Assembly (NCBI GenBank): GCA_015222055.1
Contig: JADFUR010000065.1
Span: 1 to 42,175, forward strand
Source of the DNA: Bacteroidota bacterium
GTDB lineage: Bacteria > Bacteroidota > Bacteroidia > Bacteroidales > B39-G9
Direction of reading: 5' to 3'
DNA: 42,175 bases
The notes under the pieces were generated by a model. That model did not search any database, was not told the origin of the DNA, and saw only the letters and a list, made by a program, of their open reading frames with translations. A program made the translations under genes and the position numbers. Below, in pieces: positions 2,331 to 41,690 of the stretch. Position 1 is the stretch's first letter, and every line of letters begins with the position of its first letter.

Positions 2331-3191
2331 TTATTCAACGCAAATCAATTCTACCTCAAAAATTAAAGTTGAATAAGGAGCCACAGGACCTCTTTTTTTA
2401 TCTCCATAAGCAAGATATGAAGGAATAATAATTTTTGCTTCTCCACCTTCTCTCATTTTAGATATTCCTTCGTCTAATCCTTGTATTACATCGCCTGCAC
2501 CATAAGAATATTCAAAAGCTTTATGACGTTTATAAGTAGAATCAAAAATTTTTCCATCAACAAAATAAGCTAAATAATTAATCATAACTTTATTGCCAGG
2601 TTTGGGACTTTTGCCTTTACCTTTAAGCTTCTCAACATAATATAAACCACTTTGTGTTGGTTCAACAGTTACATTTGTATTTTTAAGATATTGGGTAAGC
2701 AATTCCTCTTCTTTATCGCTGTCCGAAATTTTCAAAGCACGTCTTTCCTGTTCAAATTCTTTATAATTTAAAACATCAATAAGTTTAATATGAAAAGTTA
2801 ATTTGCTGTCAGACTTTAGAAATTTTGGAAATTTTTGTTTTCTGTTAATATTATAAAAAGTTTTGGCATCGACAATAAATACTGCACTATCGCCGGTATG
2901 CATCAAAGCTAAACCATCCTGAATGCTTGGGTTTTCACCTACGGGTTCTTTAAGCTGCATTCTAAAATAATTATTTTCATCAATAACAGAATCATTCTCT
3001 GTAGTATATTTCATTCTAAGCACGAGAATATCTCCAATTTCGGGCTTAAGAGAATCTTTATTTTCAATAATAAATTTATATTTCAGTCCTGACTTATTGG
3101 TTTTAAAACCTCCTGTATTACACGAAACAAAAGACAAAAACAGAATTGTTACAATAACGAATTTAGATAAAAAATAAAATTTGGTTTTCAT
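2331..3191 (-). CDS. FKBP-type peptidyl-prolyl isomerase lipoprotein (first of a paralogous pair)
   Basis: A 286-residue lipoprotein. The signal peptide ends in the lipobox FVSC with the lipidated Cys at 24. The C-terminal 100 residues are a good FKBP domain: GNKVMINYLAYFVDGKIFDS, then GDVIQGLDEGISKMREGGEA and a closing IIPSYLAYGD and FEVELICV. The first half (about 48-140) has the same outline in weaker form (GDILVLRM, DGLALMHTGDSAVFIV), so two FKBP-fold units may lie in tandem, the first probably degenerate. It likely assists folding of exported or outer-membrane proteins in the periplasm. The start ATG is unambiguous. It shares length and architecture with the next gene upstream (3321-4196), and the TMTC-like gene follows 5 bp downstream. 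Confidence 0.88.
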   Translation of the reverse strand: MKTKFYFLSKFVIVTILFLSFVSCNTGGFKTNKSGLKYKFIIENKDSLKPEIGDILVLRMKYTTENDSVIDENNYFRMQLKEPVGENPSIQDGLALMHTGDSAVFIVDAKTFYNINRKQKFPKFLKSDSKLTFHIKLIDVLNYKEFEQERRALKISDSDKEEELLTQYLKNTNVTVEPTQSGLYYVEKLKGKGKSPKPGNKVMINYLAYFVDGKIFDSTYKRHKAFEYSYGAGDVIQGLDEGISKMREGGEAKIIIPSYLAYGDKKRGPVAPYSTLIFEVELICVE

Positions 3192-3250
3192 GTGTTTATT
3201 GTTTAATTACGAATTAAAAATTACGAATTAGGAATGCTTTTTCCCAACCG

Positions 3251-3283
3251 TTGCTCTTTCGGATTACAAATATGAAAGAGCAA
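3251..3283. repeat. GCTCTTTCGGATT-type palindromic intergenic repeat, copy 1
   Basis: TTGCTCTTTC at 3251-3260 is mirrored by GAAAGAGCAA at 3274-3283 around GGATTACAAATAT. It belongs to the same family as the elements at 13851-14010, 19433-19459 and 27831-27858. It lies between two minus-strand FKBP genes. Just beside it (3207-3234) is a short direct repeat of ATTACGAATTA. Confidence 0.7.
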
Positions 3284-3320
3284 ATTTTTTGTTAATTTTA
3301 TTTAGACAAAAATAAAAAAA

Positions 3321-4196
3321 TTATTTTTTTGATTTCACTTTTAACAATTCTATTTCATAAATTAATGAAGTGAAAGGCGGAATAATTCCTGTTGACGAGC
3401 CATTATCTCCAAAAGCAAGAGAAGATGGAATAATAACTACAGCTTTTTCTCCTTGTTCCATCATTCCAATTGCCTCATCAAGTCCGGGGATAACCTGCAA
3501 TTCAGAGCCATAAACAAAATCTAAGGCTTGGTTTCTTTTTTTTGTAGAATCGAAAAATTTGCCATTCAAGAATCTCCCATCATAATCAATAGTAATAAGA
3601 TCTCCTTTTTCAACTTTTTTCCCATCACCTTTTTTTACAGTAAAGAAATACAATCCGGATTCGGTAGGTTTAACATCAATTTTTTGTTCGTCAATAAATC
3701 GCTTTAAAATCATTTTTTCATAATCACCAAAATCTTCTATCCATTTTAAAAATTCTTCTTTATCTCTATTATATTGCTGTTCAGTTCTAATGTCGTTCAT
3801 TTTAACATCCACTTTCATTTGGCTTTTATCTGCAATAAATTTAGGTAATGAAGTGAGAAGTGTTTTTTTAAAAAAATTATCGGCATCAATAATAAAAGTT
3901 GAACTATCACCTTTTGACATCATTAAAAAGCACTCATCAATAGAACCTTTATAATCAGGCTTAGTAACTTTGAAAGTTCTTTCTTCGTGGAAAAAAGACG
4001 AATCGTTAATTGTTCGATAATTAAGGTCAGCGGTAACATAAGCTCCCTGAATAGCAGGTGCTACTTCTTCTCCAATAGTGTGAAGTTTATAATATATACC
4101 TGTTTCGGTTTTAGAAAACCCGCGATGTTTTGAAAAATAATCGCAAGAAGTAAAAAAGAAAATTAAAATCAGAATGCAAAAAAAATTTTTTTTCAT
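3321..4196 (-). CDS. FKBP-type peptidyl-prolyl isomerase lipoprotein (second of a paralogous pair)
   Basis: A 291-residue lipoprotein when started at the ATG at 4196, which gives a compact signal peptide ending FFTSC with Cys 18. An in-frame ATG at 4217 would add seven residues before the signal peptide and is less likely. The C-terminal FKBP domain shows GDLITIDYDGRFLNGKFFDS, VIPGLDEAIGMMEQGEKAVV and IPSSLAFGDNG. The N-terminal half repeats the outline weakly (MMSKGDSSTFIIDA). Length and layout match the neighbour at 2331-3191, so the two are likely an old tandem duplication. A 124-bp gap holding a palindromic repeat separates them. Role: probable periplasmic folding factor. Confidence 0.87.
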   Translation of the reverse strand: MKKNFFCILILIFFFTSCDYFSKHRGFSKTETGIYYKLHTIGEEVAPAIQGAYVTADLNYRTINDSSFFHEERTFKVTKPDYKGSIDECFLMMSKGDSSTFIIDADNFFKKTLLTSLPKFIADKSQMKVDVKMNDIRTEQQYNRDKEEFLKWIEDFGDYEKMILKRFIDEQKIDVKPTESGLYFFTVKKGDGKKVEKGDLITIDYDGRFLNGKFFDSTKKRNQALDFVYGSELQVIPGLDEAIGMMEQGEKAVVIIPSSLAFGDNGSSTGIIPPFTSLIYEIELLKVKSKK

Positions 4197-4352
4197 GGGT
4201 TGATATTTTAAAAACATAAAAATAAAGAAGTAATTTAAAATAAATACTAAAAATTGAAATATATTCCTTTTAAAAATAAATATTAAGTTAACACTTTGGT
4301 CTGTAAATTTATTAGATAAATTTTAATAAAAAAAATTTTTCATTATTAAGTC

Positions 4353-4382
4353 AAAAAAAAATCCGACATATAGTCGGATTTT
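4353..4382 (-). terminator. Rho-independent terminator after the RRM-csp operon
   Basis: Read on the minus strand, the stem AATCCGAC/GTCGGATT (4360-4367 paired with 4373-4380, five-base loop) is followed by a run of eight T (complement of 4353-4360). It lies 29 bp past the stop codon of the cold-shock gene. Confidence 0.85.
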
Positions 4383-4410
4383 CAAATAAAAATTTTAGCA
4401 AAAAATTTTA

Positions 4411-4605
4411 TTAAATTTTTTTAACATTTTCAGCTATAGGACCTTTTTCGCCATCTGATACTTCAAACTCAACAGCTTGTTCTGGTTCTAATCTCTCAGA
4501 AACATTTTCCAAACCTGAACGATGAACAAAAATATCTTTTCCTTCTTCTGTTTGTATAAATCCGTAACCTTTTACTTCATTATACCATTTTACTGTGCCT
4601 TTCAT
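4411..4605 (-). CDS. Cold-shock domain protein (CspA family)
   Basis: A 64-residue single-domain cold-shock protein. It begins MKGTVKWYNEVKGYGFIQ, which contains RNP1 (KGYGFIQ), and continues with RNP2 (DIFVHRSGL) and the usual GPIAENV near the end. Proteins of this family bind single-stranded RNA or DNA and melt mRNA structure, often in the cold. The gene starts 6 bp after the stop of the RRM protein gene, and a strong terminator follows. The two are therefore an operon of two small RNA-binding proteins. CspA, CspC and similar subtypes cannot be told apart from the sequence. Confidence 0.95.
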   Translation of the reverse strand: MKGTVKWYNEVKGYGFIQTEEGKDIFVHRSGLENVSERLEPEQAVEFEVSDGEKGPIAENVKKI

Positions 4606-4611
4606 AATATA

Positions 4612-4881
4612 TTAATTAGGGGTGTTTTCATCATCAGTTTTTTTCTCCCGAGCAACGTTTACTTTAACGTTTCTTCCCTTAATGTCAGTGTCATTTGTTT
4701 CGTCAATAGCTTTTTGACCTTCTTCGTCGTTTAACATTTCAACAAATCCAAAACCTTTACTTCGTCCTGAGTATTTGTCAGTAATTATCTTAACAGCGTT
4801 TACTGCTCCATATTCAGAAAAAATTTTGCTTAATTCATCTTCGCTAATAGTATAAGGAAGATTTCCTACATAAATATTCAT
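4612..4881 (-). CDS. Small RRM-type RNA-binding protein
   Basis: An 89-residue protein that is almost entirely one RNA-recognition motif: RNP2 is IYVGNL at residues 3-8 and RNP1 is KGFGFVEM at about 42-49, followed by a short charged tail. Such glycine-poor single-RRM proteins are common in Bacteroidota and cyanobacteria and are thought to act as post-transcriptional regulators. It is the first gene of an operon with csp. A candidate -7 element TACCTTTG lies 28 bp upstream (4909-4916 on the minus strand), giving a short leader. Confidence 0.93.
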   Translation of the reverse strand: MNIYVGNLPYTISEDELSKIFSEYGAVNAVKIITDKYSGRSKGFGFVEMLNDEEGQKAIDETNDTDIKGRNVKVNVAREKKTDDENTPN

Positions 4882-4908
4882 AATTGTTTTTTTAATTAAA
4901 AGTTATTA

Positions 4909-4916
4909 CAAAGGTA
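4909..4916 (-). promoter_or_regulatory. Candidate Bacteroidota -7 element (TACCTTTG) for the RRM-csp operon
   Basis: The minus strand reads TACCTTTG, matching the Bacteroidota -7 consensus TAnnTTTG, 28 bp upstream of the ATG. I see no well-spaced TTTG at -33, so this rests on the -7 match and position alone. Confidence 0.45.
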
Positions 4917-4994
4917 AAATTTAAAATTGAATAAAAATAAAAAAAGATTACAATTTATTCAATTTAAATTTATTTTAATTGTATCATAAATTAA

Positions 4995-5528
4995 TCAATT
5001 TGATACATTAACTAACTTAACATCATACACAATTGTTGATCTTCGGGGGATTTTGTTGTCATCGCCCACTAAGCCAAAAGCTAAATGAGGGAGTAAAATA
5101 AATCTAGCTTTATCTCCTTCTCTCATTAATAAAATTCCCTCTTCAAGCCCTGCTTCTACGCCTCCCTGACCAATTTTAAATTTTTTAACACCTAATGAAT
5201 CAGAAGAATAACAAAGTGTTCCATCTAATAAATTAATATTATATTCAATTGTTGCTATTTTACCTTCTTTGGCATTTCTGCCATTACCTTTCTCATAAAT
5301 CATGTGCCACAAGCCGGTTTTACTAACTTTCATTTCCCATTTTCGGCGTTTTGCATAATCAGCAATTTGTTCAGCATCTTTTTTTATCAGATATTTATTA
5401 ATTTTTATTAATGGTTCTTTAAATTGAGCCACTTCAGCATCAGATCTATATTGTTGTTTGCGTGAGCAAGAAACAAAAAAAATAAATATCATCAATAGAC
5501 TACAAAACAGTATCTTATTAATCTTCAT
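4995..5528 (-). CDS. GldI-like FKBP-fold lipoprotein
   Basis: A 177-residue lipoprotein (signal peptide ending FFVSC, Cys 21). A charged linker is followed by a single FKBP-type domain from about residue 75: KTGLWHMIYEKGNG, IATIEYNINLLDGTLCYSS, GVEAGLEEGILLMREGDKA, LPHLAFGLVGDD. The GLW(H/Y) opening, the glycine-poor flap and the GDDNKIP stretch resemble GldI, the gliding/T9SS-associated isomerase of Flavobacteria. The neighbourhood (DHH phosphoesterase overlapping its start, ndk beyond) is one I associate with gldI. Its start codon lies inside the last 11 bases of the DHH gene, suggesting translational coupling. The GldI assignment is an inference; a generic PPIase lipoprotein is the safe call. 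Confidence 0.8.
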   Translation of the reverse strand: MKINKILFCSLLMIFIFFVSCSRKQQYRSDAEVAQFKEPLIKINKYLIKKDAEQIADYAKRRKWEMKVSKTGLWHMIYEKGNGRNAKEGKIATIEYNINLLDGTLCYSSDSLGVKKFKIGQGGVEAGLEEGILLMREGDKARFILLPHLAFGLVGDDNKIPRRSTIVYDVKLVNVSN

Positions 5529-34026: not shown

Positions 34027-35841
34027 TTATTTTTCAAAAAGCTTTTCGTAAATTCTTTTTTGAGAAAAATTCATATTTCTATTAATAAAAATGTTTGGAT
34101 AATATGGAATTTTGGGGACATTGACTAATATCGGCTTAATTGTAGCACTTTGCAAAACTCCCTTTTCAATATATTTTATTTCGAAAGCAATTTCTTGATT
34201 ATAATACCTCCTATATAAAAATGAAAATGAATATGATGATACTTTATAATTATTAATCTCAGTAATTTCTATTTGTTTGTTTTTAACAAATGGTGAAATG
34301 TTTTCCTGAAATTCTATCGTTATAGTTTGTGTCTTGGAATTATAAGCTATTATTTTAATAGGGAAATAGTAACCAAATTCTTTATGAATCATTGTATACG
34401 ATAAGCCCGCCTTAGATAAATAAAATGATAAATCGGGATATTTATCACTGATAATATATTTATTTGCAAAATTATCAATTCCAGGTGCAATGCTATTCAT
34501 TTTAAAAAATAGGGAATCCTTATTAAATTTGTTGTTTTGCTTGTAAATCTGTTTAATAACTGAATACAAACTGTATTTACCTTGTGACAATTCAGCAACT
34601 TCAATATCCATTAAAAAACACAAAACTGCTGCTCTGTCATAAAAAATGTTTAGATTAGACTTATCATAAATATTTTCACTGGCTTCTGCAAGGCTAATTT
34701 TGTAACCCATTTTCACATACTTGCTGTAATTATATATTTTTTCTGCTAATTTTGAAAAAAAATAATCTTTATCAATTATTCCAGCATCTAATAATATTTT
34801 TAAAGAATAATACTCTACAAAGCCCTCATACAACCAGAGATGCGGAGACATTTTTAAAGTATCATTATAAAAGCAATCATCAAAGTTATCTCTAAAATTT
34901 ATAGGTGTAAAAACATGAAAAAGCTCATGAGCTACCATTTGTTGTAAATCTTGATAATAATTAATACTATCTCTTTTATTAATAAAACTTGGTGTAGAAA
35001 AAAAATGATAAACAGATGAATTCGGATGTTCTAATGCTATTTTTTGATATACTTTTTCATTTAATCCCTCATCATATATAAAAGTTAAATTGTAATTATC
35101 TTTAAAAACAAAGCCAATTTTATTAATTATGGCACTAGTTACGGGTTTTAAAATAGTGGATAATAAACTTGCTTTGACCATAGAATTTGGACTATGCACA
35201 CTTAAAACAAATTTAGTTGAACCAATAAAAAATGTGTCATTTGTACTAATTCTAGAATAAATAATTGGAGAATTAATCATTTGTTTATAATCCCTAAATC
35301 TTATTATATCTATTGAATCATTTTTATGATAAACTTGTTGATTTGATATATTATTAAAATTCGTTCCTTTTTTAATTTCAACTTTATAATTACGATTTTC
35401 ACCAATAAAATCACCAAACAGAATATTATTATTTAATACAATTAAATCTTTATCAACAATAACTCCAGAAGACACCAAATTTATTGATGTTTTGTCTGAA
35501 CAATTTACATTATAAGTTATTGAATTTAAATCGCCAGATCCATAAATAACAAACTTATTACCAATGGTTTTTATATTCAATTTTTCTCCTTTTGAGTTAA
35601 AAGCTGTAAAATCATTAACTTTATTTTTAATAAAATGATAAGTGCCTAATAAAGTTTTAGGAAAATTCAAGAGTGTAGTATCTTTATCAATCCTAAAATT
35701 CCAAATTTTAATATTAACAGTTGATCCCGTTGAAATTTCAATATTTATATCCGTTTCTGTATCAATGGGTATTCCAGAACCTTTACAACTGGTTATAATT
35801 AAAACATTTAGTACTAAAAAAAAAAATTGAATATTTTTCAC
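34027..35841 (-). CDS. M61-like metallopeptidase lipoprotein
   Basis: A 604-residue exported lipoprotein (signal peptide ending ITSC, Cys 19). The zinc site is AHELFHVF (His 305, Glu 306, His 309) with the third ligand Glu 339 in LYEGFVEYY, the order seen in the gluzincin M61 (glycyl aminopeptidase) and M1 families. An N-terminal beta-rich domain precedes it and no clear PDZ domain follows, unlike many M61 proteins. The start is GTG at 35841: it places the signal peptide correctly, and no ATG fits. It is likely a cell-envelope aminopeptidase. The fused oligopeptidase gene lies 49 bp upstream on the same strand, suggesting joint peptide breakdown. Confidence 0.8.
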   Translation of the reverse strand: MKNIQFFFLVLNVLIITSCKGSGIPIDTETDINIEISTGSTVNIKIWNFRIDKDTTLLNFPKTLLGTYHFIKNKVNDFTAFNSKGEKLNIKTIGNKFVIYGSGDLNSITYNVNCSDKTSINLVSSGVIVDKDLIVLNNNILFGDFIGENRNYKVEIKKGTNFNNISNQQVYHKNDSIDIIRFRDYKQMINSPIIYSRISTNDTFFIGSTKFVLSVHSPNSMVKASLLSTILKPVTSAIINKIGFVFKDNYNLTFIYDEGLNEKVYQKIALEHPNSSVYHFFSTPSFINKRDSINYYQDLQQMVAHELFHVFTPINFRDNFDDCFYNDTLKMSPHLWLYEGFVEYYSLKILLDAGIIDKDYFFSKLAEKIYNYSKYVKMGYKISLAEASENIYDKSNLNIFYDRAAVLCFLMDIEVAELSQGKYSLYSVIKQIYKQNNKFNKDSLFFKMNSIAPGIDNFANKYIISDKYPDLSFYLSKAGLSYTMIHKEFGYYFPIKIIAYNSKTQTITIEFQENISPFVKNKQIEITEINNYKVSSYSFSFLYRRYYNQEIAFEIKYIEKGVLQSATIKPILVNVPKIPYYPNIFINRNMNFSQKRIYEKLFEK

Positions 35842-35890: not shown

Positions 35891-38800
35891 TTACTTATTT
35901 ATATAAAAATTGGACAATACGAAATTATAAATAAAAGCTGAATTCCAATTATGAGTTACATCATCAAAACCAAGATTATGAGAAGCATTAAAAATTGGTC
36001 TCATCAAAATTGTACTTTCTCCCGAATAATATTCTCTCAATTTCGCTACAGTTTTTGCACTTTCCCAATATTTCACTTTTGGGTCTTGTAAGCCAAAAAT
36101 AAAAAGCATATTTGGATATGGTTGTTTTTTAATATTATCATAGGGCGAATAAGACTTAATATAATTATAATATTTTTTTTGATATGGATTTCCGAACTCT
36201 CTCCAGTTGCCCGTTGATGAATATGTTGTAGAATCAAGTAAGTCAGATAATAAATCAACTTCAGAAACAATCAAAATAATTGAATTGAAAAATTCTGGTC
36301 TCTTATTTGCCACAACACCCATTATTAAACCTCCTGCACTTGAACCATAAGCTGATAAATATTGAGGGACAGTGTATTTTTCTGATATTAAATATTCGGC
36401 ACATGTAATAAAATCATTAAATGAATTTTTTTTCTTTTCTTTTATGGCATTTTTATGCCACATATTACCCAATTCATTGCCTCCTCTAACATGTGCAACT
36501 GCATACACCACTCCTCGGTCAAGCAAACTGAATAAATCCGAATTAAAAGACGGTTCCTCTCCCATACCATAGCATCCATAAGCATATAATAACATTGGTG
36601 TTTTTGCATTCTTTTTTAAACATCTTTTTTTATAAAATAATGTAATTGGAATTTTTACACTATCAACTGATGTAGTCCATATTCGTTTAACTTCATATCG
36701 TTCAGGTTTATAATTATTTATCGTTAATTGCTTAATCTTTTTTAATTCTTTAGTGTCTAAATTAAATTCATATTCTATGTTTGGAGTTACGTAAGAAGAA
36801 TAAGTCAATTTAAGGATATTTGAGTTATAATCTTGAGAATAAGAAAAATGAACAGAATAAATTTCTTCCTTATCAAATGGTATGTAGTATTGTATATTTT
36901 TTTCTTTTAAAGAAATTACCTTAATTCTATTTTGCATATTTTGTTTCTCTACAATAACATAATAATTTTTAAAAAAATGATTTTCACATATTAGAATTTT
37001 GTTGTCATGTGGCACAAAAGTTTTCCAGTTTTTCTTTGAAGGTTTATCTATATTTGTGTACATAATTTTTCCATTGGTAGCCCCCTCATTAGTATATATA
37101 TAAAATAATTTATTTTTATGCTGAATATTATAACGAACGTTATTCTTAATTGGAGATAATAGTCTAAAACCATTATCGGATAAATCAGACAGTCTATAAT
37201 AATATCCATTTGCATTTTCTTTTGATTTATATATATAAATATACTTTTTTGAGTTAGATTTCATTAATTCGAAAACAGTGTTTGAGTCTTTAGTTGTTAA
37301 TATTATTTTTTTCTGTTTATTATAATTATTATTAACTTTATATTCAAATACTGTATGATGATTTAAACTGTCGGTGCAATAATAAAAAATATTGTTTATG
37401 CTTGACCACACAATTGAACTAACATCAAATAATGTATCAACTATATTACAATCGTTTATATCATATAAAAAAGCATCGGAATTTATTTTACCCGGAATAA
37501 ATTTAGAATAAACCAAAAATTTATTATCAGGACTTACAACAAAATCTTCTATATAGAAAAATGATGCAGATATTTGCATTTTGTTAAAATCAATTAATAA
37601 TTGCTTTTTTAGTGTTTCGTTATTTTTTCTGTATAACAATGGATATTTTTTGTCTTTTCTTTTTTCTGTATAATAAATATATTTTTTTTGCGTAGCTAAG
37701 GTGTCAACATCTTGCGTTTCGCTAGTATCTTCACTATTAAAATTTCTGTCAGATATTTCGTTAAACAATTTACTTTGCAAATTGAAATGTTTCTGTAAAT
37801 AATTGTTTGAGTAATTATACTCATTTTCAATATATTTCATTACATCAGGATTTGTTAAATTGTGTAACCATTTGTAATGATCTACCCTAATTTCGTTATG
37901 AATAGTATCGACATAATACTGTTTTTTTGCAACAGGTGGTTTTAGACTATCATTAACTTTGAACCGCTCCGAAAATTGAAGCTCAAGCGGTTTTCGTTTT
38001 TCCAACTCTTTTCGTATGCTATCTTCTAAATGAGTGGGCTGTATTTTGTTGTATGCATCCCAGAACGCTTTATTATAATTTTGATGAAAACTATTAGTAG
38101 AACTTATTAAATTACAATCCAGAATGCTGTCTCTGCTTTCTTTGCTAAATTTTCGGACTCTATTATTTGTTATTATATCATTAACAAGCAAATCTTCGTA
38201 AGTAGTAAATTTTAATGCAGGTCTAATTTTTTTAAAAACATAGTATTTTGAAAAATCTAAATTATATTCCATCATTCTATATATCTTACTAAGATACCAT
38301 CTTTCTCCAACTTCCGTATAATTTATTATTACATGATAGTCTGATAAAATTAGAGTATCAATACCTTTCGACTGGTTACTATAGTAAACTCCAGGCGATC
38401 CAAAAAAAATATCCAATTTAATTTTAGGATGTTGCTTGATTAATGAATAATCACAACCGACTATAGCAAAAGATCTTTTTTCAATATAAATTTCTCCTTT
38501 AAAATATGTTTTTACAGAACCTTTTCTAGGCTCAAATTTAATAACATATACTTTACTATTATTATAATTTGTTATACCTGCAAGTGTATAATGATATTTA
38601 TCAAAATTATTTCTATGCAAGAACATGCTTTTAAATCTATATTTTGCTTTATCTGTTGCAGTAATTGGCAGTATCCCTCCTCCTATCATTGGGAATATAT
38701 GCGTTGTGTAATAATTTTTAGATGAACGGATAGCATCTACTTTTACTAAATCTTTTGATGAAGGAGGATAATCCCATTTACCGGGACATAGATTAATTGG

Positions 38801-39394
38801 CATACCAAAATTATCGGGTAAGCTAGTAGCTCTAATTTTATTATAGAATAAATTCTTAAAACTTGATTTTTTTTCATTAAAATGCTTTTTATATCTACCA
38901 TAATAGATAGTACAAGCAACATCTGTATAATTAATATATTTATCATCCTCTTTAATCATTTCTCGATAATAGGCTTTTAAATATACATCTTGCTTTGAAA
39001 AATTATTTGTAATATTATTAATAGCTTTCTTAATAATTTTAAGCGGGTCAATATATTTTATATTTATTTCTTTTATTTTATAATTTTTTGTGCTTAAAGC
39101 AATATTTATTTTGCCTTTGCAGGTTTTTTTGTTTATTGAAAATTCATAATTTTCATACCCGATACAAGAAATAACTAACTTGTCATTTTTATACTTCATT
39201 GGCAATTGAAATGTAAAAGCTCCATTAACATTTGAACTTACACCAATTGCTTTTTGTGAAATCTGAATATTTGCAAAAGGAACAGGTTCGGATGTAGTAG
39301 CATCAATTATTTTCCCGTGTATTGTAATGTTTTTTTGAGCATTTGAAAAAAAGACACAAAAGAGGCAAAATATTGTGTAGATTAATTTTTTCAT
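35891..39394 (-). CDS. Fusion: CarboxypepD_reg-like module plus prolyl oligopeptidase (S9A, oligopeptidase B-like)
   Basis: A 1167-residue exported protein. A signal peptide (about 1-19, cut after SNA) is followed by a carboxypeptidase-regulatory-like domain (about 24-102; ITIHGKIIDATTSEPVPFAN, NGAFTFQLP) and a DUF5686-like region (about 103-460). From about 486 begins a complete S9A peptidase: PPVAKK, RVDHYKWLHNLTNPDVMKYI, a beta-propeller, then an alpha/beta hydrolase with VRGGNELGNMWH, nucleophile Ser 1019 in GSSAGG, Asp 1104 in GLQDPKV and His 1139 in NASHN. The final motif departs from the GHGG of oligopeptidase B. The two halves normally belong to separate proteins. No stop or frame break separates them, so the fusion appears real. 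Likely periplasmic or surface peptide hydrolysis. Confidence 0.88.
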   Translation of the reverse strand: MKKLIYTIFCLFCVFFSNAQKNITIHGKIIDATTSEPVPFANIQISQKAIGVSSNVNGAFTFQLPMKYKNDKLVISCIGYENYEFSINKKTCKGKINIALSTKNYKIKEINIKYIDPLKIIKKAINNITNNFSKQDVYLKAYYREMIKEDDKYINYTDVACTIYYGRYKKHFNEKKSSFKNLFYNKIRATSLPDNFGMPINLCPGKWDYPPSSKDLVKVDAIRSSKNYYTTHIFPMIGGGILPITATDKAKYRFKSMFLHRNNFDKYHYTLAGITNYNNSKVYVIKFEPRKGSVKTYFKGEIYIEKRSFAIVGCDYSLIKQHPKIKLDIFFGSPGVYYSNQSKGIDTLILSDYHVIINYTEVGERWYLSKIYRMMEYNLDFSKYYVFKKIRPALKFTTYEDLLVNDIITNNRVRKFSKESRDSILDCNLISSTNSFHQNYNKAFWDAYNKIQPTHLEDSIRKELEKRKPLELQFSERFKVNDSLKPPVAKKQYYVDTIHNEIRVDHYKWLHNLTNPDVMKYIENEYNYSNNYLQKHFNLQSKLFNEISDRNFNSEDTSETQDVDTLATQKKYIYYTEKRKDKKYPLLYRKNNETLKKQLLIDFNKMQISASFFYIEDFVVSPDNKFLVYSKFIPGKINSDAFLYDINDCNIVDTLFDVSSIVWSSINNIFYYCTDSLNHHTVFEYKVNNNYNKQKKIILTTKDSNTVFELMKSNSKKYIYIYKSKENANGYYYRLSDLSDNGFRLLSPIKNNVRYNIQHKNKLFYIYTNEGATNGKIMYTNIDKPSKKNWKTFVPHDNKILICENHFFKNYYVIVEKQNMQNRIKVISLKEKNIQYYIPFDKEEIYSVHFSYSQDYNSNILKLTYSSYVTPNIEYEFNLDTKELKKIKQLTINNYKPERYEVKRIWTTSVDSVKIPITLFYKKRCLKKNAKTPMLLYAYGCYGMGEEPSFNSDLFSLLDRGVVYAVAHVRGGNELGNMWHKNAIKEKKKNSFNDFITCAEYLISEKYTVPQYLSAYGSSAGGLIMGVVANKRPEFFNSIILIVSEVDLLSDLLDSTTYSSTGNWREFGNPYQKKYYNYIKSYSPYDNIKKQPYPNMLFIFGLQDPKVKYWESAKTVAKLREYYSGESTILMRPIFNASHNLGFDDVTHNWNSAFIYNFVLSNFYINK

Positions 39395-39735
39395 TTATCA
39401 GAAATATTTAAACATATAAAAATAATACCGTCAATCAAATAAGTAAAATGTTTGACTAAAAATGATAGAAATGTTTTTTTGTTGCTGAGCATAACTTTAA
39501 TAAAATTTTTATTACAAAAAATATTAAAGCAAATTTAACAGAAAAAAAATGATAAAGTCAATTTTTTGGGGGTGTTTTAGAGTATGTTAAAAAACAATAT
39601 TTTTTGTATTTGCTATAATTTTGGTATTGCTTTGGGCTTTGTTCCCGTAACGTTTACAAAATATAATTTTGCGGAATACTCCATTAATTTTTTAATATAA
39701 AAAGGTAATTCTTTTGAAAAAACTCAGCACTCACT
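39395..39735. other. 341-bp intergenic region with a diverged 170-bp duplicate
   Basis: About 39428-39597 resembles 40883-41051 (shared pieces include GAGCATAA/TTAGCATAA, AAATTTTTATTACAAAA, AAATTTAACA and AAAGTCAATTTT). From 39724 to 39613 the minus strand has a 36-codon open stretch ending in a stop after GTKPKAIPKL; it has no start codon and I do not call it. Confidence 0.45.
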
Positions 39736-40859: not shown

Positions 40860-41272
40860 GCTATGAAGACTTTTCGAAATGCACTCATCAATTGAATAAG
40901 CAATATGTTTACCGTAAGATGACAAAAATATTTTTTTCTTGATTAGCATAATTTTAGTAAAATTTTTATTACAAAATTATTAAATCAAATTTAACAACAA
41001 AAAAATGAGAAAGTCAATTTTATTTTGCTGCTTACGGTATGTTTAAAAACAACTCATGAGCTTTGTTTAAATTAGTTTCTTAAATATCTAATATCGTCAA
41101 TAAAGAATGATATTTAGAAAACTCAAACTGTCTTAAAATCAATTTGCTACAAAAATATTTTGCTTGATATTAATGCAAAAAAAACTTCGTAATTCCGCAG
41201 GGAAATAAATTTTATGCATAAATAAAAAGACTGCTCCCTGCGGTTATCTTGTTTATTATCAATACCCCCGAT

Positions 41273-41690
41273 TAAAATCGGGGGCTATTCATATTTTTTC
41301 CCTTCGGGAAAACATCCATTTACAAACAAAAGGACAATTCTATTTTTGCTTAGCAAAGCAATTGGATTTTAATTTATATAAATTTCATCTGCGATTATCT
41401 GCATAATCTGTGTCATCTGAGTTCTATAACTATATAAAAAGTCTATCGGCATTATACCAAATTTAACAGTTTCTTCTATATTTCATATATTATCGATACT
41501 TAGTATAAAATCGGGGGTTATTCATATTTTTTCCCTTCGGGAAATTATCTATTTAAAAAAAATTACAATTTTATTTTTAATTAACAACCTTCTTGAATTG
41601 TTATTAAAACATATTGCTTTAAATAAATTTTATCTGTGCTTAATTGCACAATCTGCGTTCTATCTTTTATATTTTATTCACATAAAAATT
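41273..41690. repeat. Diverged tandem duplication with TTCCCTTCGGGAA hairpin
   Basis: Two blocks (about 41273-41443 and 41505-41690) share AAAATCGGGGG, TATTCATATTTTTTCCCTTC, GGGAA, ACAATT(C/T)TATTTTT and a final ATCTG(C/T)G / ATAATCTG(C/T)GT segment. Each copy has the TTCCCTTCGGGAA hairpin. The TCTGCG text is also a known intergenic repeat type. Confidence 0.65.

Follow-up and report, generated by a model that had tools for sequence, protein, structure and literature searches.

To our knowledge, little is known of how lanthipeptides and radical-SAM peptides of Bacteroidota are finished after export, and an obvious final protease is often absent from their clusters. Among peptidases found in lanthipeptide clusters are the S9 enzyme FlaP and the M61 enzyme MfuP (PMC10885120); LanPB has also been named (PMC7268733), and genes for C39 exporters that handle double-glycine (GG) leaders are frequent in Bacteroidota clusters (PMC7268733; PMC10352776). 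In oligopeptidase B (OpB), Glu576 binds Arg or Lys at P1 and is the source of specificity, and the family accepts peptides below about 3 kDa (PMC9917282). The fusion proteins described here resemble FlaP and LanPB (PMC10885120, PMC7268733) in that an S9 peptidase is tied to a lanthipeptide system. They differ in belonging to the OpB-like S9A branch, in carrying a signal peptide and a fused N-terminal module (N-module), and in their setting, since FlaP and LanPB come from class III clusters whereas the fusions are found with Bacteroidota class I and radical-SAM clusters, where leader cleavage by them is putative.

In the window (the whole 42,175-nucleotide stretch analysed, from genome G000), positions 35891-39394 form a single unbroken minus-strand frame of 1167 codons, which places the N terminus of the protein at 39394. 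It encodes a probable Sec signal peptide (residues 1-19, MKKLIYTIFCLFCVFFSNA; 39338-39394), judged by eye and with no lipobox Cys seen within it, followed by an NTE/CarboxypepD_reg-like domain (residues ~20-112; 39059-39337), a predicted LolA/LolB/RseB-like half-barrel (residues ~113-430; 38105-39058), a junction bearing a Y[N/D]..FW ... QF motif conserved in an alignment of 15 fusions (residues 431-485; 37940-38104) and an OpB-like S9A peptidase (residues 486-1167; 35894-37939), all on the minus strand. The earlier note had read this frame as a CarboxypepD_reg/DUF5686-like module joined to a peptidase and had proposed a domain search, which returned CarbopepD_reg_2, Peptidase_S9_N and Peptidase_S9. 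The fusion and the CarboxypepD_reg assignment were thereby borne out, while the DUF5686 label proved wrong: Pfam gave no PF18939 match in the protein up to E 0.1, as against more than 600 bits in real OpB-DUF5686 fusions. The joining of these modules is shown by the sequence itself, and the architecture is without precedent in the literature searched, which lay largely outside subscription journals.

The N-terminal domain matched CarbopepD_reg_2 (PF13715) at residues 25-111 with 60.9 bits (cut-off 32.2). In an AlphaFold2 model of the N-module built from 65 sequences, residues 20-108 grouped with SusC NTE and carboxypeptidase-D TTR-like domains, the best match being to the SusC NTE 9hfj (VIA-align Z 13.2, 80 residues, 1.5 Å). 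Residues 112-430, modelled separately, formed a half-barrel (pLDDT 83, pTM 0.86) that matched 3bk5 (Z 9.7), LolA3 of P. gingivalis (Z 9.4) and MucB/RseB (Z 8-9) in VIA-align. LolA, RseB and LprG accounted for most of the top matches, and the Z of 9.7 was obtained with a model over 183 residues at 4.9 Å and just 11% identity. On this basis the middle module is predicted to be LolA/LolB/RseB-like, at low sequence identity; the structure prediction that had been proposed for this region thus gave LolA-type proteins as the best structural matches, instead of DUF5686. Standalone Bacteroidota CarboxypepD_reg proteins of ~435 residues are homologous end to end with the first 465 residues of the fusion and have the FYRE and terminal FW..Y motifs in common with it, in agreement with the earlier view that residues ~24-460 resemble the N-terminal part of such proteins. 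These relatives are unfused and adjoin ECF sigma/FecR genes, neighbours that differ from those of the fusion. In Cognataquiflexum nitidum (L334, 3851-8127), a standalone N-module without a peptidase precedes a 226-aa ORF and then an ABC exporter of the C39 type, a setting of possible RiPP export. Together, the signal peptide, the NTE and the LolA-like module make it plausible that the peptidase is positioned in the envelope.

The peptidase half was matched by Peptidase_S9_N at residues 486-889 (181 bits) and by Peptidase_S9 at 948-1163 (162 bits). It opens with PPVAKK at 486-491 and retains an intact triad, so the description of residues 486-1167 as a complete S9A oligopeptidase holds. Oligopeptidase B was the nearest S9A group by both NCBIfam (358 bits over 487-1133, under the equivalog cut-off of 1313) and PDB (E 1e-103). 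Like the enzymes of Serratia proteamaculans (7ne4/7ywp) and Trypanosoma brucei (4bp9), which it matches over their full length, the window protein combines a propeller, an alpha/beta hydrolase and the triad, and it adds to these the signal peptide and an N-module of ~465 residues. By alignment with relatives the catalytic residues are Ser1019 (GSSAGG; 36338-36340), Asp1104 (36083-36085) and His1139 (NASHN; 35978-35980), all on the minus strand; they are invariant in the fusion set, and the triad is complete in every full-length copy. The NASHN motif noted earlier as unusual is indeed present, and it matters less than was supposed, because the position following the catalytic His is variable in the OpB family (GHIG, GHRG, HHN).

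The larger departure, absent from the earlier note, is in the S1 pocket. Here N1063-W-R1065 (36200-36208, minus strand) replaces the Glu576-x-Asp578 of oligopeptidase B, in which the role of Glu576 was established (PMC9917282). Asn at the Glu position with Arg two residues on was found only in the window protein and in that of genome G067 among 14 fusions compared, while the Glu was retained in the other 12 and in all standalone OpB proteins compared. Since these two proteins have lost the S1 Glu, an altered P1 preference, with loss of the preference for Arg and Lys, is expected of the window enzyme, and it is because Glu576 is missing that we class this peptidase as OpB-like rather than OpB.

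A survey of other genomes for the same architecture, as the earlier note had proposed, yielded no fewer than 14 more proteins whose modules follow this order, giving at least 15 independent proteins in Bacteroidia in which the junction is conserved; in all 15 that were aligned, Y..xxW and Q[FY] motifs precede the peptidase at similar spacing. Carriers include G005 (another genus of the same family), G067, G331, G729 (two copies), G721, G759 and G690, as well as Marinilabiliaceae JC017, a Saprospiraceae MAG, Roseivirga UBA6061, Cytophagales and Flammeovirgaceae MAGs and a Cytophagaceae chromosome. The fusion is rare (8 of ~770 genomes by profile search, ~1%), and its halves usually occur separately, as had been claimed, as standalone N-modules of ~435-530 aa and standalone oligopeptidase B of ~700 aa. 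The closest relative of the window fusion is that of G067 (47% identity in the N-module and 43% in OpB), which has the same N-W-R pocket. In quick trees with long branches, the fusions all fell on one side of a branch for OpB (support 97 with nine fusions and 99 with fifteen), and the nine tested for the N-module formed one clade (99) whose inner pairs matched the OpB tree. Since both halves are monophyletic with matching topology, the fusion probably arose once, in a single, ancient event. Other proteins (in G014, G441 and others) likewise join OpB to an envelope protein bearing CarbopepD_reg; they are an independent fusion that has the reverse order, contains DUF5686 and forms separate groups in both trees. 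These reverse-order proteins (L041 2383-6954; L074, L075, L076, L238, L239) are ~1515-1543 aa where complete, and in those of L075 and L076 the S1 Glu is replaced by His.

Of 15 fusions, 5 have RiPP genes no more than 8.5 kb away, as against none of 41 standalone OpB loci; the five include G331, whose gene is cut by a contig end and falls below the automated OpB threshold (automated tally 4). The linked clusters were of the class I lanthipeptide or the GG/radical-SAM type. In G067 the fusion is grouped with a GG precursor (TIGR04149), a TIGR04148 maturase and a TIGR04150 pseudo-rSAM; a cluster of this kind, with a maturase and a pseudo-rSAM of the same two families, occurs in G331 as well. The G759 fusion has LanC on one side and LanB on the other, in a cluster that also includes a GG precursor and a C39 exporter; that of G690 follows LanB, and in G729 (copy G729a) LanB is 5 kb away. 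OpB was never found near LanB in 13 control genomes with LanB. A further count, of RiPP maturases in 6 of 8 fusion genomes and 13 of 67 controls, mixes two markers and was discounted. The other TIGR04148 clusters examined lack this peptidase, so the fusion is an accessory of GG/radical-SAM clusters, not their core. On contig G067:C18 (L072, 1068-6062), the radical-SAM maturase frame runs stop-free into the fusion gene to give 1664 aa; this may be a protein of three parts, or a stop may have been lost.

The window fusion gene itself is outside any RiPP cluster, and it is five relatives that have such neighbours. No RiPP maturase or precursor was found in the 42 kb window, nor any convincing remnant of rSAM, pseudo-rSAM, LanB or LanC there; three consecutive FKBP-type prolyl isomerase genes occupy 2331-5528 on the minus strand. 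A hidden GG/radical-SAM maturase elsewhere in the genome was rejected, as no TIGR04148 match in G000 was above the family cut-off. The same genome does carry, on contig C38 (L207, 421-10563), a class I lanthipeptide cluster that comprises a C39 exporter, a split LanB, LanC, a LytTR-like regulator and a GG precursor whose leader belongs to NF038153.

Immediately downstream of the fusion, separated by 49 bp and on the same strand, is an M61-type metallopeptidase gene (34027-35841, minus strand; 604 aa, HELFH and EGFVEYY). In a search of 393 genomes, its closest relative was a decayed gene of G314 (42% identity, the others being mostly 23-29%) that stands beside a GG precursor and rSAM in a GG/radical-SAM cluster. 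Like this relative, MfuP of a Myxococcus class II lanthipeptide cluster (PMC10885120) pairs M61 with a GG exporter system, whereas the window M61 adjoins an S9A fusion, away from any maturase. M61 relatives are not RiPP genes in general, the other neighbourhoods examined looking ordinary. The G314 locus (L164, 6603-9475) comprises a precursor, an M61 gene with stops and a maturase shortened before a transposase-like ORF.

Upstream of the fusion we noted a candidate promoter of the Bacteroidota type (TTGAC...TAAATTTG; 39530-39561, minus strand), 135 bp from the start codon, and a 118-nt region (39431-39548, minus strand) with copies in the window at 40888-41052 and on contigs C38 and C57 of G000. 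The window copy (about 80% identity; 75% when the 118-nt stretches 39431-39548 and 40888-41005 are compared) is upstream of a neighbouring hydrolase gene, so that both genes behind the copies in the window encode exported hydrolases. The C38 copy precedes the lanthipeptide cluster (E 1.5e-19, about 80%), and C57 has one site, again at about 80%. That the fusion and the C38 cluster have this region in common suggests shared control. The region also precedes hydrolase and T9SS-tailed protein genes with no known RiPP link, and it may be a dispersed repeat. A separate 57-nt repeat pair (41273-41329 and 41506-41562, 89%) is probably a dispersed repeat, since a similar string occurs near the C38 precursor locus (L193, about 2870-2905).

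Since the fusion recurs often inside clusters for modified peptide antibiotics, the enzyme probably has an accessory part in the maturation or clearance of these compounds; for the window gene itself, we put a RiPP-linked maturation or turnover role at an even chance. The steps below, in which we infer location, binding role, substrate and order, would run as follows. Once the signal peptide is removed, the protein would be periplasmic and might be located at the outer membrane, and its NTE and LolA-like module may bind a hydrophobic peptide, a lipid or a partner protein. The OpB-like part would admit unfolded peptides of a few kDa via its propeller for cutting by the Ser/Asp/His triad, and an S1 pocket without the Arg/Lys-selecting Glu would favour a different P1 residue. 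A C39 exporter would first remove the double-glycine leader, and the fusion would then carry out second-step trimming or turnover of the modified peptides, for which an exported enzyme of a family that accepts small peptides would be well suited. The adjacent M61 peptidase perhaps acts with it, and in G000 the fusion may act in trans on the product of the C38 class I lanthipeptide cluster. Taken as a whole, the picture of a distinct Bacteroidota NTE-LolA-OpB family, whose carrier module hands exported lanthipeptides or radical-SAM peptides to a retuned S9A site, in some genomes in trans with an M61 enzyme and from a cluster-shared promoter, is tentative and rather doubtful in its entirety.

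Alternatively, the fusion could be a general envelope peptide scavenger serving nutrition, its N-module a mere anchor or partner binder, with RiPP clusters borrowing the peptidase occasionally. We regard this as possible though somewhat unlikely. For ten of the 15 fusions no RiPP gene was found nearby (the flanks being just 4 kb for many of them), exported standalone OpB is common in the class, and nothing else in G000 comes as near to the OpB type, the next S9A match having 27% identity. These observations must be set against the RiPP adjacency seen for fusions and for no standalone OpB locus, and against the S1 change common to the window protein and the RiPP-cluster copy of G067. Moreover, G067 and G690 each carry a standalone OpB in addition to the fusion, which is therefore not merely a housekeeping copy.

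The linkage evidence that speaks for maturation speaks equally for self-protection, that is, periplasmic destruction of mature or misprocessed RiPPs as immunity or quality control. Since PCAT exporters already take off GG leaders (PMC10352776), a further peptidase would not have to act on the leader; the M61 and S9 cluster precedents act in maturation or core cleavage, and we consider self-protection improbable. That two neighbouring genes were joined in assembly or by chance read-through can be dismissed, since order, spacing and junction motif are common to 15 proteins from independent assemblies, including the chromosome-level L323, and composition is even across the junction.

The window protein represents an OpB-like enzyme with a naturally lost S1 specificity residue. 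If the maturation or turnover role is true, a recognisable fused protease, encodable far from its cluster, would offer a concrete gene for the finishing step of exported Bacteroidota peptides, and the LolA-like carrier module would give a fold-based clue to how hydrophobic peptides are delivered to a gated oligopeptidase.
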